A stretch of DNA of 33,761 nt from Nitrospirota bacterium. GTDB taxonomy: Bacteria; Nitrospirota; Thermodesulfovibrionia; Thermodesulfovibrionales; JdFR-86. How positions within the stretch are numbered: the stretch's first letter is position 1; each line of letters starts with the position of its first letter. Location: assembly GCA_030638335.1 (NCBI GenBank), contig DAOWET010000283.1:1-33761 (forward strand). The letters run 5' to 3'. Below, in pieces: positions 3,536 through 33,761 of the stretch. Under the pieces are notes generated by a model. It did no database searches, was not told where the DNA came from, and saw nothing but the letters and a program-made list of their open reading frames with translations. The position numbers and the translations under genes are program-made.

Positions 3536-3557
3536 ATAAAGGAAGGGCAGGGATAAG

Positions 3558-3797: not shown

Positions 3798-3811
3798 CAG
3801 GCAAGGACCGG

Positions 3812-4295
3812 CCAGCCACGGGCTGGCCTTAAGCAGGTCGCGACAACCCGGTCTCACGGACCAGCCACGGGCTGGCCTTAATAGGTCGAGTCGACCCGTA
3901 ATGATTCCTTTGAAGGATAAACAGAAACGCTTTAAAGACGAGATGCTCTCGTTACATCTTCTGAAAACGGTCGGGGCTGACGGCCTCCAGTATAAACGAG
4001 CCCGTGGCTCGGTCGGGGCGAAAGCCACCAGTTGAAGGGGGCCCATGGCCCCGTGACCCCCTCCATAAATGGAGCGCATAAGCAGCCTCATAAAGTGATC
4101 AGACTAAATACAAAAAGCCGATCTGGCAATTAAAGGCTTAAATAGGGATTCTTCGTTACATCTTCTGAAACGACCGAAGCTGGACGCTCCAGTTTAAAAG
4201 GGGTCAGTACATCTTCTGAAAACGGTCGGGGCTGACGGCCTCCAGTTAAAACGAGCCCGTGGCTCGCTCCAGCTTAAAAGGGGTCAGTGACCCCC
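3812..4295. repeat. Cluster of dispersed intergenic repeat units with short GC-rich hairpins
   Basis: ccagccacgggctggcctta at 3812 and 3861; tacatcttctgaaaacggtcggggctgacggcctccag..aaacgagcccgtggctcg at 3952-4011 and 4208-4266; ggggtcagtgacccc at 4280-4294. Confidence 0.85.
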
Positions 4296-5840
4296 TCCAC
4301 AGTTTCCTTCGAGGTTATCGATAAGCACGATGATATTCTTTGAGACCTCTTCCATCTCAAGAAACATCCCGTTTGCGCGCTCGTGCTCGCCCCTGTCGTA
4401 GGCCTGGATGATCTCCTTGCCGATCTGATGCACGCGCTTATGCGGGTCTTCAAGCTTTACAAAGGCATCGCTGGTCCCGCAGGCCTCCATGCCCTCGCCG
4501 TAGTACCATTTGCCAAGGCGGCATTTGGTGTGGTCGTTGAGCTTGTCCGCCTCCAGGCGGGCCTGTCCGTTCAAGTGCGCTGCAACGCGGTTGACCCAGA
4601 GGCGGTGGTCGCCCTTTGAGAGCTCAAGCACCATCTCCTTCCTTCCGGGGGTCTTGTATTTGGCGATGGCAGTGCGTATCGTGTCCACGATGTTGGTGAC
4701 CCCGTCCACCTCTGTAAGCACCGTGGCGCTCTTGGCGTGGATGGTGCTTGATATGCTTGATGTCTCCCCTATGGTTTCGGATATCTGCCTTGTGGCCGAT
4801 GCCTGCTGCTCCACGGCAACAGAGATCTGGGAGAAAAGTTCATTGGCCTTTGTAGTGGACTCCACTATGGAGTTGAAAGAGTCCTTGACGTTCTTCATGG
4901 AGGTGTTGGCCTTCTGAACAAGTTTGGAGGAATCGTCCATGTGCTGGCGTGTCTCGTCAGAGCCCTCCTGCACGGCTGTGATCTTCTCGGATATGGCGGC
5001 AGTGGCCTTGATGGTGCGCTCGGCCAGTTTCCTTACCTCATCGGCGACCACTGCAAAACCCCTGCCCTGCTCTCCGGCGCGCGCCGCCTCTATGGCGGCG
5101 TTCAGGGCAAGCAGGTTCGTCTGGTCAGCTATACCGTGTATGACCGTGATTATATCGCTTATCTCGGTGACCTTTATGTTGAGGTCGTCTATCATGTACT
5201 TAAGCTCCAGGATGGAGGACGAATAACTGTCAACTGCCTCCACCGCAAGGTTGGACACGAATTTTCCGCCGTCAGCCACCTCCATGCTCTCAAGAGAGCT
5301 CACGGCAGCGGAAGACGTCTTTCCGGCTATCTCAGATATGGTCTGGCTCAACTGCTCAGCGTTGATGGCGATGGTTTCGGCCTGTTTTGCCTGCTCTGAT
5401 GAGCCCTGGTTGTTCTCGGCCGCATTGTGCCGGAGTTCGTCCACTTTCTTTATCACGCTGGTCACGGCGCGGATGGTCTGGTCAAAGTTATCGCCAAGGT
5501 TACGGGCGAAATCGTCGAGATCCTCGCCAAGCCGCCCGATCTCGTCATTGCTGAGCTTGCCGTGTCTTGCCGTGAGGTCGCCCTCGGAAAGATTAAGCAC
5601 CTGTTGTTCGAGCCTGCCAAGGGGGGTGGTGATGGTGCGTGAGAGCACCAGGGCCAGAACCACCGCGGCAACAGACCCTGCAAGAAGGCCTGTAACATAT
5701 ATGGCGCGGAGGGCCTCCGCGGACCCGGCCCCGAGGGCTTTTAAGAACAATAAAGTAAAAAACCCTGCAAAGACCAGGAAAAGCACAAGCAGGGTGAATA
5801 CGATCTTGATGCGAATACTGTGCTCGCCTCTTTCAGACAT
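4284..5840 (-). CDS. Methyl-accepting chemotaxis protein with C-terminal CZB zinc-binding domain
   Basis: Two TM segments, HAMP, signalling tip ([40 protein letters not shown]), CZB motif ([14 protein letters not shown]...[15 protein letters not shown]...PHKRVHQIG). Confidence 0.92.
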
Positions 5841-6028
5841 ATTACTCCCCCGGAACCAAACACCATAGTTTCAAACAGGAAGTGCCCTCCCCCGTGCATG
5901 TCCCTCAAACAGAAAACATAACAAAAAGAATAACAAAAACATAAGGAATATGTCACATGATATTACTTAATAGGCACATATGGGGCTTTTAGTCCCGAAG
6001 CTTCATTTGATATGATATTTGAGAAGCC

Positions 6029-6916
6029 ATGAAAAACCGCTTTAAGGACATACAGATGGGTGTGGCACCTGAGTGCTATCCGTGTTTTTTGCGACAGGCA
6101 AATATCGCGATGGAGATGGCGGGTGTTGACCGGGATACCATGCATCGCGTCATGCTCAGCGTACTAAGGGCGATAGGGCAGGCGGACCCGTCCAAAAAGA
6201 CACCAGCGCACATCACAAGCCCCATGCACAGGCGCATCCGCCGCCTGCTCAAGCTGGACCCGTTCCGCGGGGTGAAGGCACGATACAACAAGATAGCGCT
6301 TAAGATGTACCCCGAACTCAAAGAGATGGTTGCGTTGAGCCCCGAGCCACTTGTCATGGCCGCGAGGCTCGCCATAGCCGGCAACGTGATCGATTTTGGC
6401 ATATACAGTTCCGTGGACATCAGGGGCACGGTGGAGCGGGCTGTGGGCGAACCGGTGGCAGTGGACGACTCCGGGGAGTTCATCAAGGAGCTTAAGGGTG
6501 TGGACAAGGTGCTATATCTCCTTGATAACGCGGGCGAGGTCGTATTTGACCGTTTACTTATAGAGGAACTTCTTGCGCTTGGCAAGCAGGTGACCGTGGC
6601 AGTGAAGGCCGGCCCTGTGATAAACGACTGCACGGCCGAGGACGCCACAAGCGCGGGCCTTGATGATATCTGCCGGGTTATTGATAACGGTTCTGACCAT
6701 GTGGGCACTATCCTTGAGCAGACCTCGCGGAGTTTCCGCGAACACTTCGGGAGGGAAGGCCAGCTTATCATAAGCAAGGGCCAGGCCAACTTCGAGACCC
6801 TGATGCACGAGGATCGGAGGATATACTTCCTGCTCCAGTCCAAATGCGAAGTGGTCTCAGGAAGGCTCGGCCTTGAGCTGGGCGCGATGCTGTTTGCGCG
6901 CGGCGGGGGCAGGTAG
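6029..6916 (+). CDS. DUF89/ARMT1-like family protein
   Basis: PECYPCFLRQANIAMEMAG N-terminus; VLYLLDNAGEVVFDRLLIEEL; VTVAVKAGPVINDCTAEDA; LIISKGQANFETL. Confidence 0.85.
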   Translation: MKNRFKDIQMGVAPECYPCFLRQANIAMEMAGVDRDTMHRVMLSVLRAIGQADPSKKTPAHITSPMHRRIRRLLKLDPFRGVKARYNKIALKMYPELKEMVALSPEPLVMAARLAIAGNVIDFGIYSSVDIRGTVERAVGEPVAVDDSGEFIKELKGVDKVLYLLDNAGEVVFDRLLIEELLALGKQVTVAVKAGPVINDCTAEDATSAGLDDICRVIDNGSDHVGTILEQTSRSFREHFGREGQLIISKGQANFETLMHEDRRIYFLLQSKCEVVSGRLGLELGAMLFARGGGR

Positions 6917-6918
6917 CA

Positions 6919-7548
6919 GTGGACATACTTCGAGCTTTGGGCGCGCAGGATGCCAACTCTCTAATGGAGGCCGTGCGTGTGCTCAAAGAGGGAGGCATTG
7001 TCGCCTATCCCACCGAGACCTTCTATGGGTTAGGCGTGAAATACGATAACGAGCAGGCCCTTCGGAGCCTCTTTGAGCTTAAGGGCCGCCCCGAGGGCAA
7101 ACCCTTCTCTTTGATCATCGCTGACAAAGAACAATTGAAAGATATTGCCGGGCCGCTTCCGGGTGCTGCGCACGAACTGATCAGGCAGCATTGGCCGGGA
7201 CCCCTTACGCTTGTGCTTGAAGCGCTTCCGGGGTTGTCTCCATACATAGCGTCTTATATAGCACCTGGCGGCACCGTGGCAGTGCGTGTGCCTGGCGAGT
7301 CCATGGCCCTGGAGCTTGCGCGCAAGTGCGGGTTCGCTATCACTGCAACAAGCGCCAACCCCTCGGGCCAAGCCCCCGCGAGCACGGCACGAATGGTATC
7401 GGAATACTTCCCTGAAGGCATTGACCTTTTGCTTGACAGCGGGGCCACCCCAGGCGAGCTGGCCTCGACGATAGTTGACCTTACAGGCCAAGTGCCAAGG
7501 GTATTGCGTGAGGGCGCGTGCAGGGTATCGCTTCCGGGGCCGAGATGA
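6919..7548 (+). CDS. L-threonylcarbamoyladenylate synthase family (YrdC/Sua5/TsaC)
   Basis: GTG start; GGIVAYPTETFYGLGVKYDNEQAL, KGRPEGKPFSLIIAD, WPGPLTLVL, TSANPSG. Confidence 0.9.
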   Translation: MDILRALGAQDANSLMEAVRVLKEGGIVAYPTETFYGLGVKYDNEQALRSLFELKGRPEGKPFSLIIADKEQLKDIAGPLPGAAHELIRQHWPGPLTLVLEALPGLSPYIASYIAPGGTVAVRVPGESMALELARKCGFAITATSANPSGQAPASTARMVSEYFPEGIDLLLDSGATPGELASTIVDLTGQVPRVLREGACRVSLPGPR

Positions 7549-15592: not shown

Positions 15593-15815
15593 GCAACTCC
15601 TCCATCTTTGTTTTGTCAACTATAGTCAATTCACTTTTCTTTCTCACTGATATAGATCATGCGTTTAAAACACAGGGATCCATTTGCAATTGCTTGGAAG
15701 AACTAAACTCCATATATAAGCAATTATATCACAGAAAAATTATATCACAGGGTCTCTGGAACAGAAGCAATATTTTTTTATGAGTGTATAAAAAGGCCCC
15801 CTTTAAACTGGAGGC

Positions 15816-15933
15816 GAGCCACGGGCTCGTATTAACTGGAGCGCACAGCTTCCAGCGTCTCCAAGAAAAGCAACGTAGCATCTCTCCCTTGGAACGTATT
15901 GCCCACAGGAATAAATAGAAGTCTCCGTGAGAC
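15816..15933 (-). repeat. Dispersed repeat unit, tandem copy 1 (inverted relative to the 3.9 kb copies)
   Basis: gagccacgggctcgtattaactggagcgcacagcttc...ataaatagaagtctccgtgagac. Confidence 0.8.
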
Positions 15934-15971
15934 CGGGTCGACTCGACCTATTAAATCCAGCCCGTGGCTGG
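15930..15971 (-). repeat. Inverted copy of the element at 3861-3899
   Basis: gaccgggtcgactcgacctattaaatccagcccgtggctgg is close to the reverse complement of ccagccacgggctggccttaataggtcgagtcgacccgt. Confidence 0.8.
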
Positions 15972-16093
15972 GAGCCACTGGCTCGTATTAACTGGAGCGC
16001 ACAGCTTCAATCGTTTTCAGGAGAAGTAGCGCAGCATTTCTCCCCTGAAACGTTCCTATTGCCCACCGGAATAAATAGAAGTCTCCGTGAGAC
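15972..16093 (-). repeat. Dispersed repeat unit, tandem copy 2
   Basis: gagccactggctcgtattaactggagcgcacagcttc...ggaataaatagaagtctccgtgagac, direct repeat of 15816-15933. Confidence 0.8.
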
Positions 16094-16287
16094 TGGCCCC
16101 AAAAGATTTTCCTTGCTATAGTTTCTTTTATTAGATACTATAAATCTACAGATTTAGGGAGGGGCAGGGCTCAAGTACCTTTATATATCAACCAGCGCAT
16201 ATTCCGTTGTCATATCCATGTGCAGGCTGTCTCATATAATTGGCCGTGCATGGCGGGCCGGGATTGCGCAATAACTAAGGAGGAGGG

Positions 16288-17678: not shown

Positions 17679-18113
17679 CTATCCAGCTTTCGTCCCGGCC
17701 CTCTCAAGCGCCTTGCCAGAGCCGCATACGGTTAAACCTGCCCCGGGCGCGGCCTCTTTTAAATGTATATCGCTTGAGACGATTATCTCCGCCCCATGCG
17801 CCAGAGCGCATGCGATGAACTTGTCGTCTTCAGGGTCGTCTTTAACCCACCGCCCATCAGGCGGGTTTTCATCCAACAAAATATTTTTGCCATCACGAAT
17901 ATCATTAAGAAGGTTTTTCAACTTTTCACCTCTGAAGGAGAACCTTGTAAGGATATTCTCATACTCCCTGAGCACGGCAGGGGTGACGCAGAGAAATATT
18001 ATTCTCTCCGGATAGAAGGGCCCGTGGCCCCGCCAGGCCTCCACAAGCCTGCCAGCGTTTCCCCCAAAGAGCGAGGCAACAAGCACGTTGGTATCAATTA
18101 CGAGTTTTAGCAT
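17679..18113 (-). CDS. PIN-domain protein (COG1569/PIN_3-like)
   Basis: MLKLVIDTNVLVASLFGGNAGRLVEAW; VLREYENIL; DDPEDDKFIACALAHGAEIIVSSDIHL; ggaggt RBS upstream of 18113. Confidence 0.85.
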   Translation of the reverse strand: MLKLVIDTNVLVASLFGGNAGRLVEAWRGHGPFYPERIIFLCVTPAVLREYENILTRFSFRGEKLKNLLNDIRDGKNILLDENPPDGRWVKDDPEDDKFIACALAHGAEIIVSSDIHLKEAAPGAGLTVCGSGKALERAGTKAG

Positions 18114-18181
18114 GCTCTCAGAAACCTCCAACCAGACACTTCCAAAAGGATAACCTGAGTAACAGAGAGAGGGGGGGACAT

Positions 18182-19747
18182 CTAGAGATTGGGCATGAAT
18201 CTCGCGACAAGCGGCAGGGCCCACTCAAGCCCTATGGCCTTTTGCGTCACCTTCGGCCCGGGGGGAGACTGCCTTCTCAGGGCCTCGGCCCCCTGTATGC
18301 GGGCAAGAAGCTCCTCAAGCCCCGCAGGGCCGATCTCCCCTACCTTCATGGCCTCCTCAAACCCCAGATCGTCCTCAATAAGCACCTTCAACGCGGCCTC
18401 CTCGGGGTTTGGCTTCGAGGCCACCTCGATCGCCTCCCTGGGGATGACCTCACCCATGGAGTTCCGCCACGCGGAGAGCCTCAGCACATCAGGCCCCCAG
18501 AGGTCTTTAAGTGGGGCAAACAGTCCTGCTGTCTCAGCATATAAAGTGATCCCGCCCGAGGCAAGGTCGGACTTTGATATTGAGGATATTGGAAGCAGGC
18601 CAAGGGCTACCGATTCATCCATCAACGCAGCGCCAAGCTCCCGCATGCCCGCGCTCATGGACGGGGCCTCCACAGTATTGATCCCAAGCAGCTCCGCGCA
18701 CCCTTTGGCAGAAGGTGCCCACCTGCCATCGGCGATAAGGGCATGCACAGAGGCGCTGCCGATGGAGTCAGCAGCCATGCAGGCCGCAAGGTCGGATGCG
18801 AGCCCCCCGCTCATAACGAGCATCACGCCCTTGTACCCGCCTTTTTCCACAAGGTCGACCAGCGCTGTTGCAAGCGCGGAATAAAGGGCATGCTCAGGCG
18901 CCATCGGCTCTGGTATCTCTCGTTCAGGGATAGTTGGCAGGGGCTTGTCATTAGCAGGCTCTGTCAACTGTATAACGCGGACATCGTCCTTTATCTGCCC
19001 GGCCTCCGCAGAGGTCTCAAGCGGCACGTCCACCACGAGCAGGTCCTCCACGAAGTTCCTTGCGCGCGCGATGGTTTTCCCGTCAGCACCCACAACAAGG
19101 CTTGCGCCCTCGAAGATCAGCTCGTCGCTGGCACCTGCCATGTTCACAAACGCCACAGGCGTGGAGCACCGCGAGGCAAAGCTTGACGCCAGGTGCTCTG
19201 TGTGTCCGGACCGGCCGGAGACATATGGCCAGGCGCTCATATTTATAATTAGCGAGGCCCCGGCGCTGCACTGCCTTTCGGCCGGGCCTTCTAGATACCA
19301 GAGGTCCTCGCGCAGGTTCACGCCGATCAGTTTGTCAGCGAACTTAATAAGACCGAGTTCCGATGCGGTTTGAAAATACCTTGACTCATCAAGTGTGCCA
19401 AGACCTGGCATATGCTTTTTGTGGAAGGCCCCCCTCATCAGCCCGCCGGAGCAGACAGCAGCGGCGTTCGTGGCGGAGCTCTCAAGCAGGGGCAGGCCCA
19501 CAAGCATGGTGATCTCGGGCACGCTCTCCCATACCCGTTTCAGTTCAAGGGAACATGCGTTGAGAAACCCCCTGCTTGCGAGCAGGTCCCTTGGGTGGTA
19601 TCCCGAGAGCGCCAGCTCGGGAAACGCGACAATGCCAGCGCCAAGCGCAGCCGCGTTTCGTGCATAGGCAATAATGCGGTCAGCGTTGCCCCTGACGTCT
19701 CCCACTGTGGGGTTTATCTGCGCAAGCGCTATCCTGATGGAATCCAT
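18182..19747 (-). CDS. nadE: Glutamine-dependent NAD+ synthetase family protein, probable pseudoenzyme
   Basis: Nitrilase domain FPELALSGYHPRDLL, HKKHMPGLGTLDESRYF, but GVNLREDLWYLEGP; synthetase domain VMSGGLASDLAACMA, SKSDLASGGITLYAETAGLFAPLKDL, RRQSPPGPKVTQKAIG. Confidence 0.85.
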   Translation of the reverse strand: MDSIRIALAQINPTVGDVRGNADRIIAYARNAAALGAGIVAFPELALSGYHPRDLLASRGFLNACSLELKRVWESVPEITMLVGLPLLESSATNAAAVCSGGLMRGAFHKKHMPGLGTLDESRYFQTASELGLIKFADKLIGVNLREDLWYLEGPAERQCSAGASLIINMSAWPYVSGRSGHTEHLASSFASRCSTPVAFVNMAGASDELIFEGASLVVGADGKTIARARNFVEDLLVVDVPLETSAEAGQIKDDVRVIQLTEPANDKPLPTIPEREIPEPMAPEHALYSALATALVDLVEKGGYKGVMLVMSGGLASDLAACMAADSIGSASVHALIADGRWAPSAKGCAELLGINTVEAPSMSAGMRELGAALMDESVALGLLPISSISKSDLASGGITLYAETAGLFAPLKDLWGPDVLRLSAWRNSMGEVIPREAIEVASKPNPEEAALKVLIEDDLGFEEAMKVGEIGPAGLEELLARIQGAEALRRQSPPGPKVTQKAIGLEWALPLVARFMPNL

Positions 19748-23146: not shown

Positions 23147-24202
23147 ATGATTTTTGGTAAAAAAGATACGATAGGGCTTGATATAGGCTCGAGCTACCTT
23201 AAGGTTGTGCAACTTAAGGAGAAGAAGGGGGCCTATGAGCTGGAGGCATTTGACCTCCTGCAGCTGCCGCCGGAGCTTGTGGTGGAGGGCTCCATTATCG
23301 ACTCCCTCCGCCTTGTGGAGAGCATCCGCGAGCTCGTGAAGCTTGCCAAGATCAAGAGCAGGAACTGTGTGCTCGGCATCGCGGGCCACGCCTCTGTCAT
23401 CATCCGCCGCATATCGCTTCCCGAGCTGAGCGAGGAGGAGCTTGCCGAGTCCATCAAGTTCGAGGCCGAGCAGCACATCCCCTTTGACATCGACGACGTG
23501 AACATCGACTTCCAGATCCTGGGGCCGATGGAAGACGAGCCCGGGCAGATGGACGTTATGCTCGTTGCGTGCAAGAAGGACATAATCAACGAATACACCT
23601 CGGTGGTGCGCGAGGCCGGGCTCAAGCCCCTGGTGGTGGACGTAAACGCCTTCTGCATCGGAAATGCATACGAGATAAACAGCGAGATCGAACTGGACCG
23701 CACCGTGGCCCTTGTAAACATCGGCGCGTCCACGTTGAACCTCAATATCCTGAAGGGCGGCCTTACTGTCTTTACGCGCGACAGCGCCATCGGGAGCAAC
23801 CTCCATACCGAGGCCCTGCAGAAGGAGTTCGGCCTTGAGTACGAGACAGCGGAGATGCTCAAGAAGGGCGAGGCCGTGGACGGCGTTGGCCCGGAGGACG
23901 CCCAGCCGGTGCTGGAGCAGGCATCGGAGGAGATAGTGGCCGAGATCTCCCGCTCTATCGAGTATTACCAGAGCACGGGCTACATGGAGGAGATACACGA
24001 GGTCGTCCTCTCCGGCGGCGGGGCGCTGATCCCCGGGTTCCTGGAGCTCCTGGCCCAGGCCGTGGGCCTGGAGGTCACCATGAGCGACCCATTCCGCAAC
24101 ATAGTGATACCGGCCAAGTTCGACGTTACGTACCTGGAAGAGATGGGGCCCATAGCCACGGTGGCCATGGGGCTTGCCATAAGAAAGCTTGGTGACAGAT
24201 GA
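23147..24202 (+). CDS. pilM: Type IV pilus assembly ATPase-like protein PilM
   Basis: IGLDIGSSYLKVVQLKEKKGAYELEAF; actin-fold motifs; head of pilMNOPQ operon; ATGA overlap with next CDS. Confidence 0.95.
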   Translation: MIFGKKDTIGLDIGSSYLKVVQLKEKKGAYELEAFDLLQLPPELVVEGSIIDSLRLVESIRELVKLAKIKSRNCVLGIAGHASVIIRRISLPELSEEELAESIKFEAEQHIPFDIDDVNIDFQILGPMEDEPGQMDVMLVACKKDIINEYTSVVREAGLKPLVVDVNAFCIGNAYEINSEIELDRTVALVNIGASTLNLNILKGGLTVFTRDSAIGSNLHTEALQKEFGLEYETAEMLKKGEAVDGVGPEDAQPVLEQASEEIVAEISRSIEYYQSTGYMEEIHEVVLSGGGALIPGFLELLAQAVGLEVTMSDPFRNIVIPAKFDVTYLEEMGPIATVAMGLAIRKLGDR

Positions 24203-24738
24203 TACGGATAAACTTACTGCCCACCAAGCGAAAGAAGAAAACCCAGCCGGTTGCCACGTATCTGGTCACCGCCGGCGTGGTGACACTTGTGTTCATAGCC
24301 CTGGCGTTCTTTGCCAATTCATACATGGGCTCGAGGATAGACGACCTTGAGGCCACGAGCGCTCAGAACAAGAGGCTGCTAGTTGAACTTGACAAGAAGA
24401 TCAAGGAGGTCAAGGACTTCGAGGCGATCAACAAGAAGTTCATGGACCGCAAGAAGGTCATAGAGGAACTGACCGCCGGCCAGAGCCTTCCGGTGCGGAT
24501 ACTTGACGAGCTGAGCATGAAGCTGACGGACGGCGTTTGGCTGAAGACCCTCAGTATCAAGAACGAGAAGGTCTCTTTGGCCGCGATGGGCTTTAACAAC
24601 AGCGAGATAGTGGATTTCGTACAGGACCTCAAGGGCTCGGAACTTTTCAAGGAAGTTGTTCTGCTTGGGACCACCAAGGCCGTGATCGACGACGTTGAGG
24701 TCTTTAACTTCAATATATCCTTTGTGGTGGGGAGCTAG
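24199..24738 (+). CDS. pilN: Type IV pilus assembly protein PilN
   Basis: MIRINLLPTKRKKKTQP N-terminus, single TM, coiled coil; operon position. Confidence 0.93.
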   Translation: MIRINLLPTKRKKKTQPVATYLVTAGVVTLVFIALAFFANSYMGSRIDDLEATSAQNKRLLVELDKKIKEVKDFEAINKKFMDRKKVIEELTAGQSLPVRILDELSMKLTDGVWLKTLSIKNEKVSLAAMGFNNSEIVDFVQDLKGSELFKEVVLLGTTKAVIDDVEVFNFNISFVVGS

Positions 24739-24740
24739 CC

Positions 24741-25355
24741 ATGGCACTTGATCTTGGGTTTGATCCAAAGGTCCTGAAGCAGAAGCTCAGGAACCCGCCC
24801 AAGCCCGTAAAGATAGCGGTCAACGTGGTTCCCGCGGTCATTGTTGTGGCCCTGTGCGTGGTCCTTGTCATCCTTCCCAAGAACAAAACGATCAATGAAC
24901 TCGGGGACGCCATATCCAAGCAGGAAAAGGACATAGCGGCCAAGCAGTCCAAGGTGGCCAACCTCGATAAGCTGAAGGCGCAGACGGAACTTCTGAAGAA
25001 GGAGCTTCGTGAGTTTGATGAGGCGCTGCCTAAGGAAGGCGAGATCTCCACCCTTTTAAAGCAGGTGAACTCGCTTACTAAAGAGGCGGACCTCGATATC
25101 ATCTCATGGAAGCCCTCCACCCGCAAGCAGATGCACAAGAGCAAGATAGTGTATTCCATCCCCGTGCAGGTGGTGCTCAAGGGCAGCTACCACAAGCTCG
25201 GGGTATTCTTCAGCAGCCTCACCCAACTGAAGCAGATAGTGAACATTACGAGCATCTCGCTTGGAAGCCCGACGGTTACGGGCGACGAGGTGATCCTTAG
25301 CGTTAACTTTACGGCCGTGACCTTTGTGGCCGTGCCGGAGGCGAAGATAAAGTGA
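24741..25355 (+). CDS. pilO: Type IV pilus assembly protein PilO
   Basis: Single TM, coiled coil, FDEALPKEGEISTLLKQVNSLTKEADLDI; operon position. Confidence 0.92.
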   Translation: MALDLGFDPKVLKQKLRNPPKPVKIAVNVVPAVIVVALCVVLVILPKNKTINELGDAISKQEKDIAAKQSKVANLDKLKAQTELLKKELREFDEALPKEGEISTLLKQVNSLTKEADLDIISWKPSTRKQMHKSKIVYSIPVQVVLKGSYHKLGVFFSSLTQLKQIVNITSISLGSPTVTGDEVILSVNFTAVTFVAVPEAKIK

Positions 25356-25858
25356 TGGGCGCGCGCCAGGAAAAAGCGATAATGTTCCTCACACTGCTCA
25401 TGCTTTTAGTGTGGGCGGGCCCGGGCGCGGCACAGGAACAGGAGGCGGCCGCGGTCGGCGCGGATGGTGACGAGTCCGGGTTGGTCAAGTACCGCGAGCC
25501 TACATATATTTACAGCTCCATCGGCATGCGCGACCCCTTCCGCTCTCTCATACAGAAGGTGGAACTGAGCGATGAGGGGGATATGGAGAGGCCAAGGACC
25601 CCTCTTGAGAGTTACAACGTGAGCCAGCTCAATCTCATTGCAATAGTTAGCGCGGGCGACAAGGCGTATGCCCTTGTGGTATTGCCTGACGGCAAGTCAT
25701 ATACGGTTCACGAGGGCATGAACATCGGGTTGCATGACGGGATAGTCAAGGAAATTCGTTCGGACCAGGTTGTGGTCGAGGTGGAAACCAAGGACCACAA
25801 GGGAAATAAGAAGCTGGAAGAGGTATTCCTCAAGCTCCGCCAGGAGGATGATAAATGA
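25352..25858 (+). CDS. pilP: Type IV pilus assembly protein PilP
   Basis: Hydrophobic N-terminus; GMRDPFRSL; LESYNVSQLNLIAIV; DGKSYTVHEGMNIGLHDGIVKEIRSDQVVVE. Confidence 0.92.
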   Translation: MMGARQEKAIMFLTLLMLLVWAGPGAAQEQEAAAVGADGDESGLVKYREPTYIYSSIGMRDPFRSLIQKVELSDEGDMERPRTPLESYNVSQLNLIAIVSAGDKAYALVVLPDGKSYTVHEGMNIGLHDGIVKEIRSDQVVVEVETKDHKGNKKLEEVFLKLRQEDDK

Positions 25859-28170
25859 TGAGAAGAAGAGTTGCACTTATATTTCTATTGATGGCAGTAC
25901 TGGCTGTTGCCGGCTGCTTCGGAAAATCTCCTGGAGCGGTCCAGCAGGACCTCGGGATGACAGTGGTGGACTCTGTGGTCGTCTCGGACCGAAGGGTGGA
26001 GATGCAGATGGACGGAGAGTTCAGCTCATCGTATTCGGTGCGGAAATCCTCTGACCCTTATGTGGCGATAGTTGAGCTTCCTGGTGTGGCTGTGGGAGAT
26101 TTTGCGGGCTCCATCCCCTCTGACAAGGAAGGCATCTCCGAGGTGAGGCTTGTGATGGTACAGACCCCGGTTTTGCTTACGAGGGTTGAGATAGTTTTCA
26201 GCGAGCCCCTGGAGCTCATTGCCTCAAAGCACGGGCAGACACTCGTGCTTGACGCGCTGGAAGGCGGCGCTGCAGTGCAGGAGGAGGTGGCCAGGCCTTT
26301 GCCTATCGCCTCCACGATGACCGCTGAGGGGCTTGAGGTTATCGAACTCTTGCCAGCAACAGAGATAACGGCCCTTGCAATTGTGACCACCGGAGGCCAG
26401 ACAAAGCTTGTGATCTATGGCGATGGTTCAATGGAGCCTGATATTTTCACCCTGCCCGGAAGGATAGTCATCGATGTGCCAGGGGTTTCCATAAAGGCCC
26501 CCATGCCCTCCAAGCTTGAGAGGCCGATGCGTGATATCAGGTTCGGCTCCTATGACGATAAGGTAAGGCTTGTGCTTGATATGGAGCATGAGGGTGAGTT
26601 CCTGGCGATCACAAAGGACAACATCATAGAGCTAAGCGTGTCAGTGGAAGAGGCGCGCGCGACCATGTTCGGCGCTGGAGAGTCCGCGGCGGTGCCAATC
26701 AGCGCACAGGTAGAGACGCTTGAGGCCCCTGAAGGCGAAGAGGTGGAGGCGCTTGAAGTGCCTGAGGACCAGGAGATGGCCGGGATGGAGCCTGCGGAGG
26801 ACTTTGCCGAGGCACCTGAGATCTATGATGAGGATGTGGAAGCCCTTGACGAGACCGGTGTCGAAGAAGAGCCGGTAAAGGGCGGGATAGCAGGCTATTT
26901 GGGAGACCCCAGTGCTGTTTATGGCCAGCAGTATACGGGCAAGACCATCTCGCTTGATTTCCAGGACGCGGACGTGGTTCCCATATACAGGTTCCTGGCC
27001 GATATCGGCGGGTATAACATTGTGGTGCACCCATCGGTCGCCGGCCGGGTTACGCTAAAGCTCACGGATGTTCCCTGGGACCATGCCCTTGACATAATCC
27101 TGGAACTCTCAGGCAACGGCAAGCAGCTTCAGGGCAACATACTGCGCATAGCCCCGGCAAGTGTTTTTGTGCAGCAGACCGAGGCCAAGGCCAGGCTGAA
27201 GGCCTCGGAGAAAAAGGCCGCAGACCTGCAGCAGGTGGCAATACCTCTTAAATACATCGCGGCCATTGACATGAAGGCCCGGATTGACGAGCGCAAGTCG
27301 GTCCAGGTCAAGGAAAGCAGCGGACAGGTGGCGGACCGCGGAACTATAAGGGTAGACGAGCGGACCAATACGATAATAGTCAGCGACACCGCTGACAACA
27401 TCAAATGGATGCTGGATGAGGAGATCCCTTACTGGGACACGCCTGAGCATACAACACTGCAGGTGCTTATCGAGGCCAAGATCGTGAGCGTCAGGACGGA
27501 CTACGCGCATATCCTCGGCATCCGCTGGGGAGGCAGCGCCAATAGCGACAACTTCTCTTTCATAGACGACGACATGTCATTGGATTTCTCGGTGAACACT
27601 CCCACATCGGGGGCCGGCGCAGATGCCTCGGCAGCGGGTGGTCTGTTGAACATCGGCTATGCGGAGACGTTTAACCTGAACCTGTCCCTGAGCGCGCTTG
27701 AGACGGTGAAGAAGGCAAAGAGCCTTGCCAACCCGCGAGTGATAACCATTGACAAGATGCAGGCGATGATCACCCAGGGCACGGCCATACCGTACGCAAC
27801 GAGCGCCGAAGGCGGCGGAACGACCATCGAGACCAAGGACGCGTCCCTTACCCTGACCGTGACGCCCGAGATACAGCCAAACGGGATAATCAAGCTTGTT
27901 GTGGATGTTAAAAACGACTCGCCCACTACCATAGCTGGCGCGGATGCCCCGGGCATTGACAAGCAGCAGGTAAAGACACAGGCCCTTGTGAAGAACGGCG
28001 AGACCCTGGTGCTTGGCGGCATATTCACGAACACAGAGCAGGAGAGCGAGGTCCGCGTGCCGGTGCTCAGCAGGATACCGGTGCTTGGCTGGCTCTTCAA
28101 GACCCGGACGGTGTCGAGGTTCCCAAACGAGCTTCTTATCTTCATAACCCCGAGGATAATAGGCAATTGA
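25855..28170 (+). CDS. pilQ: Type IV pilus secretin PilQ with N-terminal AMIN-like repeats and lipobox
   Basis: AVAGC lipobox; AMIN-like domains; ISLDFQDADVVPIYRFLADIGGYNIVVHPSVAGRVTLKLTDVPWDHALDIIL; secretin core ending VPVLSRIPVLGWLFKTRTVSRFPNELLIFITPRII. Confidence 0.96.
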   Translation: MMRRRVALIFLLMAVLAVAGCFGKSPGAVQQDLGMTVVDSVVVSDRRVEMQMDGEFSSSYSVRKSSDPYVAIVELPGVAVGDFAGSIPSDKEGISEVRLVMVQTPVLLTRVEIVFSEPLELIASKHGQTLVLDALEGGAAVQEEVARPLPIASTMTAEGLEVIELLPATEITALAIVTTGGQTKLVIYGDGSMEPDIFTLPGRIVIDVPGVSIKAPMPSKLERPMRDIRFGSYDDKVRLVLDMEHEGEFLAITKDNIIELSVSVEEARATMFGAGESAAVPISAQVETLEAPEGEEVEALEVPEDQEMAGMEPAEDFAEAPEIYDEDVEALDETGVEEEPVKGGIAGYLGDPSAVYGQQYTGKTISLDFQDADVVPIYRFLADIGGYNIVVHPSVAGRVTLKLTDVPWDHALDIILELSGNGKQLQGNILRIAPASVFVQQTEAKARLKASEKKAADLQQVAIPLKYIAAIDMKARIDERKSVQVKESSGQVADRGTIRVDERTNTIIVSDTADNIKWMLDEEIPYWDTPEHTTLQVLIEAKIVSVRTDYAHILGIRWGGSANSDNFSFIDDDMSLDFSVNTPTSGAGADASAAGGLLNIGYAETFNLNLSLSALETVKKAKSLANPRVITIDKMQAMITQGTAIPYATSAEGGGTTIETKDASLTLTVTPEIQPNGIIKLVVDVKNDSPTTIAGADAPGIDKQQVKTQALVKNGETLVLGGIFTNTEQESEVRVPVLSRIPVLGWLFKTRTVSRFPNELLIFITPRIIGN

Positions 28171-28384
28171 GACATGGGAGTCCACATATAATGGTGCCCT
28201 CCGGAGGCTTGGGGACAGATAAGGGGCATCCCGGCCATTGGGCAGGCAATGCCATGCATGTGTGTAGAGCGCTTCATATCTCAGGGGAAAGTATCCCTTG
28301 TGAATTTGAGAAGGATGAAGTATATGTTTGATAAATCAAGGGGTTGCAGGTTTTTTCCTGTTGCCGGCCCCAAGGAGCAGGTTC

Positions 28385-28400
28385 TGGCATGCAGTTTGCT
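28385..28400 (+). promoter_or_regulatory. Candidate sigma-54 (-24/-12) promoter
   Basis: TGGCATGCAGTTTGCT, 15/16 to TGGCACRNNNNTTGCW, GG/GC separated by 10 bp; ~112 nt upstream of the 28512 ORF. Confidence 0.5.
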
Positions 28401-28511
28401 TCATTTAATGAAGAGGAGTTCTGTGTATATAGGGATGAAATTGATAGGCAGCACTCATATATATCCCCCCGGGGGGTCGGGGGGCACATCTGAAAGCGGA
28501 GGTCATCTGAT

Positions 28512-31500
28512 ATGAGACGGAAGGCGTTTCCATATTATGTCCTGACAGGCATTGCACTCATTTTGTTATTTATTGTTTCCTGCGGTAACCAAGACGGAGG
28601 ATCGCCCGTGGTAGATTCCGGCGACCCCGCCGGCAACAGCGCCGGTATGCGGGACGCCATGGGCGGGTTCATCGATGATGCATTTAATTTAACCAATGCT
28701 ATCGATGATGACCAGTCAAACCCTTCCTCAGCCTATGATATTGGGCAGAATGTATTTTTTACTGTCTGGGCTGATGCGCGTCACCAAGACCCCTATGGTA
28801 AAGACATATATGGTGCATTTATTAATGCCTTTGATGGTGCTATCATGAGTGAGATCGTTATCGCCAACTCAACGGGCAACGAGATCCAGCCTTCTGTCGC
28901 CTTTGATTGGCGGAACAAACGTCATCTGGTGGCATTTACAAACAGTGCGGACAAACATATTTGGGGCCGTTTTGTAAACGCCACAACCTATAACTTTGCT
29001 GGCATGGGCGATAATTTCCCTATTGCGATGTTAAACTCAACCGTTGACAGAACCGTGCCATATGGTTCTGGGCAGATAGCTGTAGCCGGAACAGTCACAA
29101 ATACTGTTGGTACTGCTGATGGAACTAATGGCACTTTTTCCATCGATCTTTTATCAAACCCTCCAGTTCCAAATCCTGCATTTATAAATATGCCATATGG
29201 CTCAGGGGTCGCGAATATTACTGCTGCCACCTCTGTGTCTTTTGGTACGTTAGGGATATTTGAGGATGGAGTTCAGGTCGGATGGGAAGACGCCTTCAAC
29301 GGCATTATAAGTGGTTCACGTACAGGTGGGCCTAATGCTACACAAACATCGTCTGGCGTTGCGGATACTTATACCTATCCATTTACACTTACAAATACCC
29401 CTGTGGCAACAGGTACTGTGGATATTGTTTATGATGATGGTTCTACAACTGACAGGATAGCCTATGATGATGGCTTCGGGACATTTATTTTAAATACTCC
29501 TAATCCTTCAGGCTTCCCAACTCTTGATATAGTTCAGTCAGCTGTTGATTACAACACAGGTGTAGTGTCTCTTGTTTTTGAGAACGATGTAACCAGTTAT
29601 AAATTCTCTGCTGGAGCTGGAGTGGAAGGCCCATATGATGCGACCCTTATTAATTCACCTATAAAACCAGGCTCTTTGTATCTTTATTCTGGCGCAACAA
29701 GTATAGGTTCTGACCTTAGCGGTTCGGGAACTTTTGACTCCCCTGGCGGGGAGCTGGATGTTATCAATAACACACCGACCATAGACTACTGGACAGGTGT
29801 GCTTAATGATATATATTTCTCAACAGGAAATTATCCTGCCATAGGTGTTGACCTTACTGCCACGTACACGATAAATTCCCCGCAGGCTGGCGACACTGTT
29901 TCCCTTGATTATATAACTGGTAGTGCTTCAAATCTTTTTAATACAGCGGCCTCATATGTTGATTACAGCGATGGGATGCTGTATCTTGATTACACCGCAG
30001 GGCTGGAGCCGTTACTTAATGTTGAGATCACATCCGAGTATCAGTATAGCCAGAATAGTGAACTGGTTCATGATATCTCATATTATACAGCTTATCAGGA
30101 GAGTCCTCATGTGGTTTATAATGAGGTTGATGATCTGTTCCATGTGACCTGGCTTTCCACCACCAATAAGTCCAATAACGTGCATTATCAATGGACAGAC
30201 CCTAATTATGTCTGTTCAAATGGCTACAATGATGGTAATGGCTGGAATGATACCTCAGGCGATACCAATATATTCGACTTCACCTATGTATTGGAGCCAG
30301 GTGTGGACAGCAAGATGGTTCGCTACCGTAATGTTTCCTTTGATGATTACTTAAAAGGCGATGGTGATGATGGCTCTGGTAGTACTGATGATTATATAGA
30401 CGAGATATACAATTATGGTTACGATCTGGATGGTGATGGCACGCCTGATGATATGGACGGCGATGGCATTGCGGATCTGGACTTCTCGCCCATTGACAGT
30501 GAGATCATTGATGCCAGCAAGTTCAGGTACAATACGTTCAAAGAAGAGTTTGTATGTGAAGAGTTAAGCGAGACACTGACAGTTACGCTTGCGCTTACAG
30601 AGTACAATTTTGAGAGTGACCCGCATATTTCCTATAATCCTGTTAACGGTAATCCAGTTGCCTTATGGTCAGGTCAGGACAAGACTATTGATCTCGTATA
30701 TGTGTGGAACAGGACGGGAGAGAAGAAGACTATAGATGGCGTTGAATATATTTTCTGGAAAGGCTGGAAGGAGACCAAGACAGGACCAGGTTTTAGTGCT
30801 AATTCAGCTCAGCGCATCGTGGCCGTGACAAATGATTTCAACACATGGTACGACAACTACCTTGAGGTGGCCGGTTCTTCTGCCGACAGGAGGCCCTGGG
30901 CTGCAACGGACATCTACACGGAAAACATGCTCGTGGTCTGGGAGAGCCAGAACGCCACTGACAAGGACATATACGGGCAGTTCATTGAGATGCAGAACTT
31001 CCAGACGGACGTGGGAGATCAGATCGAGATATCCACGGAACAGTTTGACCAGTCAGTCCCTCGCGTGAGCTTTGATTCCGTGAACGAGCGTTTCATGGTC
31101 ATCTGGGAGGATGCCAGGAACACCGCAGTGAACCTCTCCAACATGGATATATTCGGGCAGTTTGTTGATGGTGCAAACGGACAGCTCTCAGGTTCCAACT
31201 TCTCCATTACCGTAAATACGGGCAACCAGCAACAGCCATCGGTGGCTTTTGGCGATTTCGACCGCAGGAATTTCCTCATAACATGGAAGGACGGACGCGA
31301 CCCCGGTAACGCGGACGTATGGGGGCAGCTCTGGGAGTTCTCAGAGGCCCCACAGCTCCTGATCACGGACGACCTTGGAGACCCCATTTATGACCAGACA
31401 CTGAGGTTTGGCGGGGTACCGGTATACTCAAGCGAAGAGATCATCTTCCGCATCCAGAACAACGGTAATGCCCCGCTGGTCATAAACTCCATCACAGCCG

Positions 31501-33761
31501 AATCGGACGTGAGCCTTGTCTCCGACCCGGACATCCCGTTCAACATGACCACATCGCCTCCAAGCAGCATCAACCCGGGCAGCTACCACTCCATGACCGT
31601 GAAGTTCGCCCCCAAGATAGCCAACACCTACAGCGGTATTGACAGCTCCATACTCATCACCTCTAACGGCGGCATCACGCGCCTTTACTTCAGCGGCTAT
31701 GGCATTGGCGAGGACCCGTTCATAACAACCGAAGCCCTTCCCGACGCCGCGCTCTCAAACACCTACACCGCTACACTTGAGGGCTCGGGCGGCACAGTTC
31801 CCTACAGCTGGGCGGTAACGAGCGGCGTTATAACAAACGGCCTTTCCCTTGACGGAGACCTTGGCACTATCACAGGCACCCCAAACGCGTCAGGCCCCAT
31901 GTACTTCACCATCCAACTCATAGACAATGCCAACAAGACCACCTCAAAGAGCCTCTCGATCACCGTACTGGAAATGGCCATTACCACCTCCACTCTGTCC
32001 GACGCGGCGGAGGGAGTGCTTTATTCGGACACTATAGATGTGGCTGGTGGCACCGGGCCTTATACATGGGAAAGGCTCTCAGGAGCCCTGCCTGCAGGTA
32101 TTCCTGATATAGACGATACACCAATAGCAGGCACAAGCTACACGCTCACAGGCACGCCCACGGACCTCGGAAGCTTTACCTTCACGGTTCAGGTCACTGA
32201 CTCGAGCGGCGTCCCGAAGACCGCTACCAAGAGCCTCACACTGACCGTCTCATCCGAGGTGCGTATCACCTCCACCTCACCGCTACCAAGCGCGGTCCTG
32301 GGTGAGTACTATACACATACCATGCAGGGCGAGGGAGGAACCCCTCCATATGTATGGGAGGTTGACAGCGGCCAGCTCCCGGACGGACTGGACATACACA
32401 AGAACTCGGGGATTGTCTATGGCACCCCAGGCCTGGAAGGCACGTTTACAGCTGACATACGTCTCACTGACAATAACTTCGTAAACACGGTATCTACTTT
32501 CGAACTTTCAGTCGGCGATCTCAGCATTGTCACGGACTCTGTCTCTGACGGTTCTCTGGATACTTATTATTCGGCCACGATACAGGCCTCTGGCGGGACC
32601 AGCCCCTACACCTGGACGCTGGACCCCAATGACCTTCCCGATGGGCTGTTGCTTAACACTACCGATTCTCCTCCAAACGCGATCATCAACGGCACCCCAA
32701 CGTTGATCGGTTCATTTTCATTCCTTGTAAACGCCACTGACACCAGCTCTCCCTCGGCGCTTACCGTCCAGAAGATATTCAATATAGACATCACCTCGCT
32801 TGTAATAAATACCATCTCGCTCTCTGACGGCGCACAGGACATCGCCTATGCCCAGCTTATTGAGGCGGGCGGGGGAACCGATATCCATACATGGCGCGTT
32901 ATAGCGGGTGTGCTGCCCACAGGCCTTGCCCTTGATGCCAATACCGGCTATATCAGCGGTATGCCTGCCTCTGTCGGGACGAGCTGGTTCATCGTGGAGG
33001 TGGAGGACAGCGATGGTGCTGTGGCCACCCAGAAGCTCAATATAACGATCAGCGATCTGAACATTACCACAGAGGACCCGTTGACACCTGCCTCGGAAAG
33101 CGAATACTACGCGGAATTCCTTGCGGTGGAAGGCGGCACCTCGCCCTACACCTGGTCATACACGGGCACGCTTCCAGCCACCATGGCCTTCAACTCCAAC
33201 GGCCTTATAAACGGCACCCCATCTGTTGGGGACAAGGGTAACTACAAGATAACGGCCTTTGTCAACGACACCACGGGCCTCAGGGTGAGCAAGGAGTTCT
33301 CCTTCACGGTCTATGATATAAGGATAACGACCATATCGCTCTCCGCAGGCGTTGTTGACCTGGCCTATTCCCAGATACTGGAGGCCTCCGGTGGAGACGA
33401 GATCTACACCTGGAGCATTGACGCGGGAGTGCTTCCCACCGGGCTTACGCTTGATGACTCTTCCGGCTACATAAGCGGCACGCCCACGACACAGGGCACG
33501 ACCACCTTCAGGATAAAGGTGGAGGACTCAACCGGAGACGTGGCTACGCAGGTCTTCTCAATCACGATCTCCGACCTGAACATAACCACGGAGGACCCGC
33601 TTAACCCGGCCTCCGAGGGAGTGTACTACAGCGAGTTCCTGGCGGTTGAGGGCGGTGCATCCCCATATTCCTGGTGGTACACGGGTACGCTTCCAGCCAC
33701 CATGAGCTTTGCCTCAAACGGCCTGATAAACGGCTCCCCAGCGATCGGAGACAAGGGTAAC
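28512..33761 (+). CDS. Giant multidomain surface lipoprotein/adhesin (3' truncated by window edge)
   Basis: Open frame of 1750 codons from ATG to last base, GGAGG RBS at 28498-28502; lipobox LLFIVSC; propeller-like motifs, DLDGDGTPDDMDGDGIADLD, HYDIN-like and Ig-like repeats. Absent from ORF track because no stop lies in the window. Confidence 0.93.
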   Translation, partial: MRRKAFPYYVLTGIALILLFIVSCGNQDGGSPVVDSGDPAGNSAGMRDAMGGFIDDAFNLTNAIDDDQSNPSSAYDIGQNVFFTVWADARHQDPYGKDIYGAFINAFDGAIMSEIVIANSTGNEIQPSVAFDWRNKRHLVAFTNSADKHIWGRFVNATTYNFAGMGDNFPIAMLNSTVDRTVPYGSGQIAVAGTVTNTVGTADGTNGTFSIDLLSNPPVPNPAFINMPYGSGVANITAATSVSFGTLGIFEDGVQVGWEDAFNGIISGSRTGGPNATQTSSGVADTYTYPFTLTNTPVATGTVDIVYDDGSTTDRIAYDDGFGTFILNTPNPSGFPTLDIVQSAVDYNTGVVSLVFENDVTSYKFSAGAGVEGPYDATLINSPIKPGSLYLYSGATSIGSDLSGSGTFDSPGGELDVINNTPTIDYWTGVLNDIYFSTGNYPAIGVDLTATYTINSPQAGDTVSLDYITGSASNLFNTAASYVDYSDGMLYLDYTAGLEPLLNVEITSEYQYSQNSELVHDISYYTAYQESPHVVYNEVDDLFHVTWLSTTNKSNNVHYQWTDPNYVCSNGYNDGNGWNDTSGDTNIFDFTYVLEPGVDSKMVRYRNVSFDDYLKGDGDDGSGSTDDYIDEIYNYGYDLDGDGTPDDMDGDGIADLDFSPIDSEIIDASKFRYNTFKEEFVCEELSETLTVTLALTEYNFESDPHISYNPVNGNPVALWSGQDKTIDLVYVWNRTGEKKTIDGVEYIFWKGWKETKTGPGFSANSAQRIVAVTNDFNTWYDNYLEVAGSSADRRPWAATDIYTENMLVVWESQNATDKDIYGQFIEMQNFQTDVGDQIEISTEQFDQSVPRVSFDSVNERFMVIWEDARNTAVNLSNMDIFGQFVDGANGQLSGSNFSITVNTGNQQQPSVAFGDFDRRNFLITWKDGRDPGNADVWGQLWEFSEAPQLLITDDLGDPIYDQTLRFGGVPVYSSEEIIFRIQNNGNAPLVINSITAESDVSLVSDPDIPFNMTTSPPSSINPGSYHSMTVKFAPKIANTYSGIDSSILITSNGGITRLYFSGYGIGEDPFITTEALPDAALSNTYTATLEGSGGTVPYSWAVTSGVITNGLSLDGDLGTITGTPNASGPMYFTIQLIDNANKTTSKSLSITVLEMAITTSTLSDAAEGVLYSDTIDVAGGTGPYTWERLSGALPAGIPDIDDTPIAGTSYTLTGTPTDLGSFTFTVQVTDSSGVPKTATKSLTLTVSSEVRITSTSPLPSAVLGEYYTHTMQGEGGTPPYVWEVDSGQLPDGLDIHKNSGIVYGTPGLEGTFTADIRLTDNNFVNTVSTFELSVGDLSIVTDSVSDGSLDTYYSATIQASGGTSPYTWTLDPNDLPDGLLLNTTDSPPNAIINGTPTLIGSFSFLVNATDTSSPSALTVQKIFNIDITSLVINTISLSDGAQDIAYAQLIEAGGGTDIHTWRVIAGVLPTGLALDANTGYISGMPASVGTSWFIVEVEDSDGAVATQKLNITISDLNITTEDPLTPASESEYYAEFLAVEGGTSPYTWSYTGTLPATMAFNSNGLINGTPSVGDKGNYKITAFVNDTTGLRVSKEFSFTVYDIRITTISLSAGVVDLAYSQILEASGGDEIYTWSIDAGVLPTGLTLDDSSGYISGTPTTQGTTTFRIKVEDSTGDVATQVFSITISDLNITTEDPLNPASEGVYYSEFLAVEGGASPYSWWYTGTLPATMSFASNGLINGSPAIGDKGN
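32799..33761 (+). repeat. 519-bp (173-aa) higher-order tandem repeat of paired Ig-like domains inside the giant CDS
   Basis: gcctat..cag at 32841/33360, ctgaacat(t/a)accac at 33057/33576, ggcct(t/g)ataaacggc at 33201/33720, each offset exactly 519 bp. Confidence 0.85.

Follow-up and report, generated by a model that had tools for sequence, protein, structure and literature searches.

The stretch of DNA analysed here (hereafter the window) is 33,761 bases long and corresponds exactly to one entire contig, C199, of a Nitrospirota bacterium assembly of 300 contigs (92% complete). Its distal part holds the type IV pilus genes pilM, pilN, pilO, pilP and pilQ, located immediately upstream of, and on the same strand as, a long open frame that reaches the last base of the contig (Table 1). 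Re-translation of this frame gives zero stops in 1,750 codons; the remaining five frames across the same interval contain 46–120 stops each, and at the local base composition a run of 1,750 codons would stay open with a probability of ∼10^-35. The closest upstream in-frame stop is at 28491, which fixes the start of the gene at 28512, and the frame is truncated because the contig ends there. The product opens with MRRKAFPYYVLTGIALILLFIVSC followed by GNQDGG. An earlier note, made from the sequence of the window, had described a lipoprotein gene directly downstream of pilQ and on its strand, overlooked by ORF callers that require a stop codon. The frame, its start, the lipobox and the position behind pilQ all stand on re-examination, and the ORF list indeed carries the gene solely as an open-ended frame.

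Table 1. Features of the pilus locus at the end of the window, with the basis of each assignment.
Feature	Coordinates	Strand	Basis or remark
pilM	23147–24202	+	TIGR01175 above cut-off
pilN	24199–24738	+	PF05137
pilO	24741–25355	+	PF04350
pilP	25352–25858	+	PF04351
pilQ, type IV pilus secretin	25855–28170	+	TIGR02515 above cut-off
pilQ–giant gene gap, 341 bp	28171–28511	+	No Rfam match; promoter or terminator not evident
Giant lipoprotein gene, 5' part, 1,750 codons	28512–33761	+	Truncated by contig end; probably continues on C77 and ends on C167
Signal peptide and lipobox (FIVSC, Cys24)	28512–28583	+	Translation and alignment of four orthologues
Beta-propeller region, WxDxRxxxxDI(Y/F)GQ repeats	28689–31361	+	Alignment; AlphaFold2 model of the L124 orthologue
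HYDIN/ASH Ig-like domain	31392–31694	+	Pfam PF15780 (over cut-off) and PF22544 (under cut-off); sequence-profile matches to HYDIN/FAP65 chains
Eight He_PIG Ig-like domains, last one partial	31722–33755	+	Pfam and profile built from the repeats

A riboswitch or other RNA in the leader between pilQ and the giant gene was considered and rejected, with no Rfam match at E ≤ 1 and a folding z-score of -1.5, and a search of the same gap for a promoter or terminator gave nothing clearly above shuffled sequences. Elsewhere in the window, a NAD synthetase-like gene (18182–19747, minus strand) matches the synthetase domain over ∼50 residues only, and has SGGLAS in place of the expected SGGxDS; a fuller nadE match is found on contig C90. 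A short ORF at 17679–18224 (minus strand) has a PIN-domain-like start (VIDTNVLVASLFG), and is possibly the toxin of a toxin-antitoxin pair. Interspersed direct repeats of 18–89 nt occur in the intergenic gaps at 3807–4288 and 15809–16096, several of them containing a palindromic core that resembles GAGCCACGGGCTCG, and look like REP-type elements.

The N-terminus of the giant protein (MRRK...LLFIVSC, followed by GNQ) reads as an n-region and h-region ending in the lipobox cysteine, which is invariant among the four orthologues aligned. WxDxRxxxxDIYGQ repeats span the N-terminal 900 residues, with a window-specific insertion at residues ∼160–530. I employed AlphaFold2 to model the matching region of the closest complete orthologue (L124), using 18 sequences. 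The model is nearly all beta (pLDDT 75, pTM 0.71), and its Foldseek matches are sialidase-type propellers, with a TM-score to the query of at most 0.35 and ∼6–11% identity, so that the region is assigned as a beta-propeller with moderate confidence. At these values the likeness is one of fold only, and no weight was given to sialidase activity. Further downstream, He_PIG (PF05345) scores 195 bits over seven stretches (Pfam cut-off 24 bits), where the repeat-derived profile counts eight domains. The last of these belong to a repeat unit, 519 bp long and covering two domains, which another contig, C77, also carries.

Within the same genome, the Ig repeats of the giant gene were found only on C199, C77 and C167. 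C77 (3,196 bp) has one frame open from end to end and contains only Ig repeats (He_PIG, 389 bits), and C167 begins inside an open frame (He_PIG, 331 bits) that stops at base 3540. This frame ends with a Gly/Asp linker and then CYIATAAYGS..., a terminus scoring 99 bits against the CFI-box-CTERM model NF041770 (cut-off 40), and matching this model rather than those of MYXO-CTERM or JDVT-CTERM. C77 ends with 122 bases that recur at the very start of C167 with a single mismatch. No exact overlap was found between C199 and C77: the final 519 bases of C199 are at most 82% identical to C77, and the two ends are different copies of the 519-bp repeat, in the same phase and differing at several bases. 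This would fit an origin of C77 and C167 in another gene, with the window gene stopping shortly past the contig end. Such an origin is very unlikely, as the repeats are on no other contig, the frame of C77 runs off both ends and that of C167 is already open where the contig begins, and C167 has both the expected C-terminus and a neighbouring gene of a pilQ-linked family. That neighbour, together with the identical order of parts and the CFI-box end of the complete L124 orthologue, supports the chain independently of the repeats. Downstream of the giant gene, a comparison of the C167 genes to the corresponding regions of two relatives (G001 and G003) gave no match; relatives of the neighbouring gene are found downstream in two others (G002 and G046), the sole informative comparison on this side.

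The missing part of the gene is thus very probably located on C77 and C167. With the order C199-C77-C167 and both joins inferred, the protein would be at least ∼3,930 amino acids long, or ∼4,100 if one repeat unit bridges the C199-C77 gap, and the window would perhaps hold its N-terminal 40–45%. The rebuilt order would be a lipoprotein signal, a WxDxR-type beta-propeller, a HYDIN/ASH domain, ∼30 He_PIG Ig-like domains, the Gly/Asp linker and CFI-box-CTERM. CFI-box-CTERM matches in the window genome number ten (nine besides the giant gene; on contigs C158, C43, C245, C167, C119, C260 and C225), against 0–3 in each of 60 relatives. One of these, at 4589–7054 of the C119 locus L020, is an 821-residue protein combining WxDxR repeats and CFI-box-CTERM; its signal peptide is of the ordinary type, and the gene is not linked to pil genes. 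Three CPBP (PF02517) genes are also present in this genome, and could include a processing enzyme.

In order to identify orthologues, homologues were gathered from one genome per species, and each locus was tested for pilQ, pilM and pilO. The resulting set holds 19 loci (L124–L139, L141, L142 and L151), most of them from metagenome-assembled genomes (MAGs), in Nitrospirota, Geobacterales/Desulfuromonadales, Syntrophorhabdaceae and one Aquificota MAG. In 16 of the 19, the gene follows pilQ on the same strand, separated from it by no more than a few small genes (15 of 18 without L151, the weakest N-terminal match, which was counted partly on context). The contigs of L127 and L137 begin too close to the gene to judge, and L133 is unlinked, so that 16 of the 17 assessable orthologues are pilQ-linked, across three phyla. 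By comparison, pilQ was found at none of 47 loci that share mainly the propeller repeat, some of which are on short contigs. The synteny of homologues with pil genes, proposed as a check in the earlier note, is therefore borne out. The lipobox, propeller and HYDIN region can be aligned across orthologues, and the window gene fits this pilQ-linked family. Its closest complete member, L124, is from a Thermodesulfovibrionales MAG of the same family (G001), starts 41 bp after pilQ, and encodes 1,483 amino acids with the architecture of the rebuilt protein, including CFI-box-CTERM at the end; the window protein is 43% identical to it.

The gene is nonetheless patchy. The cassette genes of Geomonas diazotrophica and Geotalea sp. 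are located between pilQ and aroC, and many Thermodesulfovibrionales that lack the giant gene have aroC directly after pilQ. Among 56 relatives, the site behind pilQ is occupied by a small lipoprotein gene in 17, the giant gene in four and aroC in 22. Since most Thermodesulfovibrionales relatives have the pil operon and lack the giant gene, it does not belong to the core pilus machine. In one relative (G046; L073, 8991–11597), the pilQ-linked site holds a subtilase-like lipoprotein that is interrupted by a stretch resembling metal-dependent hydrolases and has a Cys tail similar to JDVT.

The small lipoprotein, an Ig-like protein of ∼200–270 amino acids, accompanies most giant orthologues. In the window genome a member follows the probable end of the giant gene rather than preceding the gene, as the next same-strand gene on C167 (4074–4880, L019), with an E-value of 5.9e-11 to a profile built from the mature parts of 16 Nitrospirota members, the C167 gene itself excluded. 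The small protein is predicted to form an Ig-like beta-sandwich (pLDDT 88). No convincing sequence relative was found in Pfam, NCBIfam or the PDB, and a fold search gave weak matches to Ig/FnIII-type sandwiches, none of them informative on function. Many Nitrospirota and Geobacterales have a gene of this family behind pilQ, in many cases with no giant gene (for example L103, 6135–6752, and L129, 9308–9901), and it may be the more basic pilus partner of the two. At L133, where the giant gene is away from pilQ, it is still beside its small partner.

Complete giant proteins range from 1,254 to 3,203 amino acids, with variable numbers of Ig and HYDIN domains. Most end with the CFI-box tail; L126 and L141 have MYXO/JDVT-like Cys tails instead, the match to JDVT-CTERM being sub-threshold and confined to L141. 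In a tree of the N-terminal region, the Syntrophorhabdaceae copy (L125) groups with the window and L124, and a Geobacteraceae copy (L142) with that of Aquificota, both with support of 100/100. In the pilQ tree, L142 is located inside Geobacteraceae, and L125 stands apart on a long branch. This conflict suggests that the giant gene has been exchanged between lineages while staying at the pilQ site, although long branches, above all that of L125, call for caution. Over its first 3 kb (28501–31500), the giant gene has a G+C content of 45–48%, compared to 55–60% in the pil operon; the Ig repeats are back at 56%, a pattern such as a mosaic or acquired gene would show.

These observations suggest that 28512–33761 begins a gene of the type IV pilus locus whose product is a giant lipoprotein at the cell surface, most likely involved in adhesion or scaffolding around the pilus or secretin, a reading that I consider rather probable. 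The conserved linkage points to a partner of the pilus, and joined to the lipobox, the variable Ig stalk and the C-terminal Cys-helix-Arg tag, it argues for a surface protein whose production goes with that of the pilus machine. The protein would be produced together with PilMNOPQ, leave the cytoplasm through Sec, receive its lipid at Cys24 and reside in the outer membrane, where the Ig array may form a length-variable stalk and the propeller may act in binding, as a head, or in docking. The C-terminal tag (Cys motif, hydrophobic stretch, Arg-rich tail) would act as a sorting or membrane-retention signal, and it is possible that one protein carries membrane anchors at both ends. It would thus function at the cell surface, near the secretin or pilus, as an outer-membrane-anchored adhesin or scaffold. 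Against this stand the lack of the gene beside most Thermodesulfovibrionales pil operons, the 341-bp gap, which bears no sign of co-transcription with pilQ, the L133 pair away from pilQ, and the moderate confidence of the propeller model. A broader proposal, possible but distinctly tentative, is that of a two-lipoprotein accessory module of type IV pili, comprising the small Ig-like protein and the giant propeller-HYDIN-Ig protein with its CFI-box, exchanged between phyla and kept at pilQ; it would build a surface structure of tunable length that is attached at the secretin, and the CFI-box would be a sorting signal of a myxosortase-like kind.

The giant gene could instead encode a repetitive surface protein of an ordinary kind, functionally unconnected with the pilus, for which the position behind pilQ is simply a tolerant or co-transcribed one. 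The patchy occurrence of the gene within the order, its fast evolution, and the presence of unrelated lipoproteins at this site in relatives are all compatible with this, but a linkage across three phyla, kept where the trees suggest exchange, and a pairing with the small lipoprotein that persists even at the unlinked L133, make it unlikely. Known type IV pilus machines employ accessory outer-membrane lipoproteins, and the small lipoprotein is found behind pilQ mostly without the giant gene; the pair could accordingly be structural partners of PilQ in the periplasm or outer membrane, serving in its assembly, anchoring or gating, with the small lipoprotein as the secretin-proximal part and no role in adhesion. 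However, lengths of 1,254 to more than 3,900 amino acids and variable Ig arrays fit surface stalks and not ring partners, and the small protein has no sequence match to solved structures and weak fold matches, so that I regard this as quite unlikely. Finally, the absence of detectable PF05567 in the four closest Nitrospirota carriers (the window genome G000 together with G001, G012 and G056) could hint at a pilus-tip adhesin taking the place of PilY1. This domain is over cut-off in nine of the 14 other cassette-bearing genomes, which largely rules out replacement as a general explanation; its absence is in any case common in the order (28 of 81 genomes over cut-off), and a lipobox is unlike a pilus-tip protein, leaving very little credit for this idea. 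A pilus-associated surface protein probably remains the best description of the product.

Interest in the type IV pili of Geobacterales and Thermodesulfovibrionales concerns attachment, syntrophy and electron transfer, and little is known of the surface partners of these pili. The lipoprotein pair beside pilQ in three phyla is a concrete candidate for such a partner, and as some carriers of the giant gene are isolates (Geomonas diazotrophica Red69, and apparently Geotalea sp. SG265), its deletion should be possible there. The locus also illustrates that the largest surface genes can be hidden by stop-requiring ORF calling and by contigs broken at repeats.

A search of the open-licence literature found no description of the giant gene, no paper with CFI-box-CTERM or CFIATAAYG, and none joining pilQ, aroC and Geobacter; the present analysis supplies a locus context for this domain. 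The end of C167 and those complete orthologues that were scored reach 99–106 bits against NF041770, which names a terminal domain and not a protein family, and to which the giant gene would add an N-terminal lipobox and a pil locus. MYXO-CTERM and JDVT-CTERM, targets of myxosortase, have a similar tripartite C-terminus of Cys motif, hydrophobic helix and Arg-rich tail; the MYXO-CTERM tail is cleaved by myxosortase, after which the protein is at the surface, and lipidation of the Cys has been proposed (PMC11980579). MYXO-CTERM is, however, described with ordinary signal peptides and not lipoboxes, and the CFI-box is longer. PilY1 (PF05567), the pilus-tip adhesin, similarly combines type IV pilus association with a beta-propeller, but differs in architecture and locus. 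PF05567 has no match in the window protein, nor on C77 or C167, and both proteins occur in many of the same genomes. Large type 1-secreted adhesins of the Bap/RTX type resemble the giant protein in size, Ig-like repeats and contig breaks at repeats (compare PMC7762298), whereas the giant protein carries a Sec/lipoprotein signal and a CTERM tail. Finally, He_PIG and choice-of-anchor adhesin-like proteins (PF05345, NF012200) share the long tandem Ig-like arrays and expanding repeats, from which the giant protein is set apart by its conserved propeller-HYDIN N-terminus, its lipobox and its linkage to pilQ.
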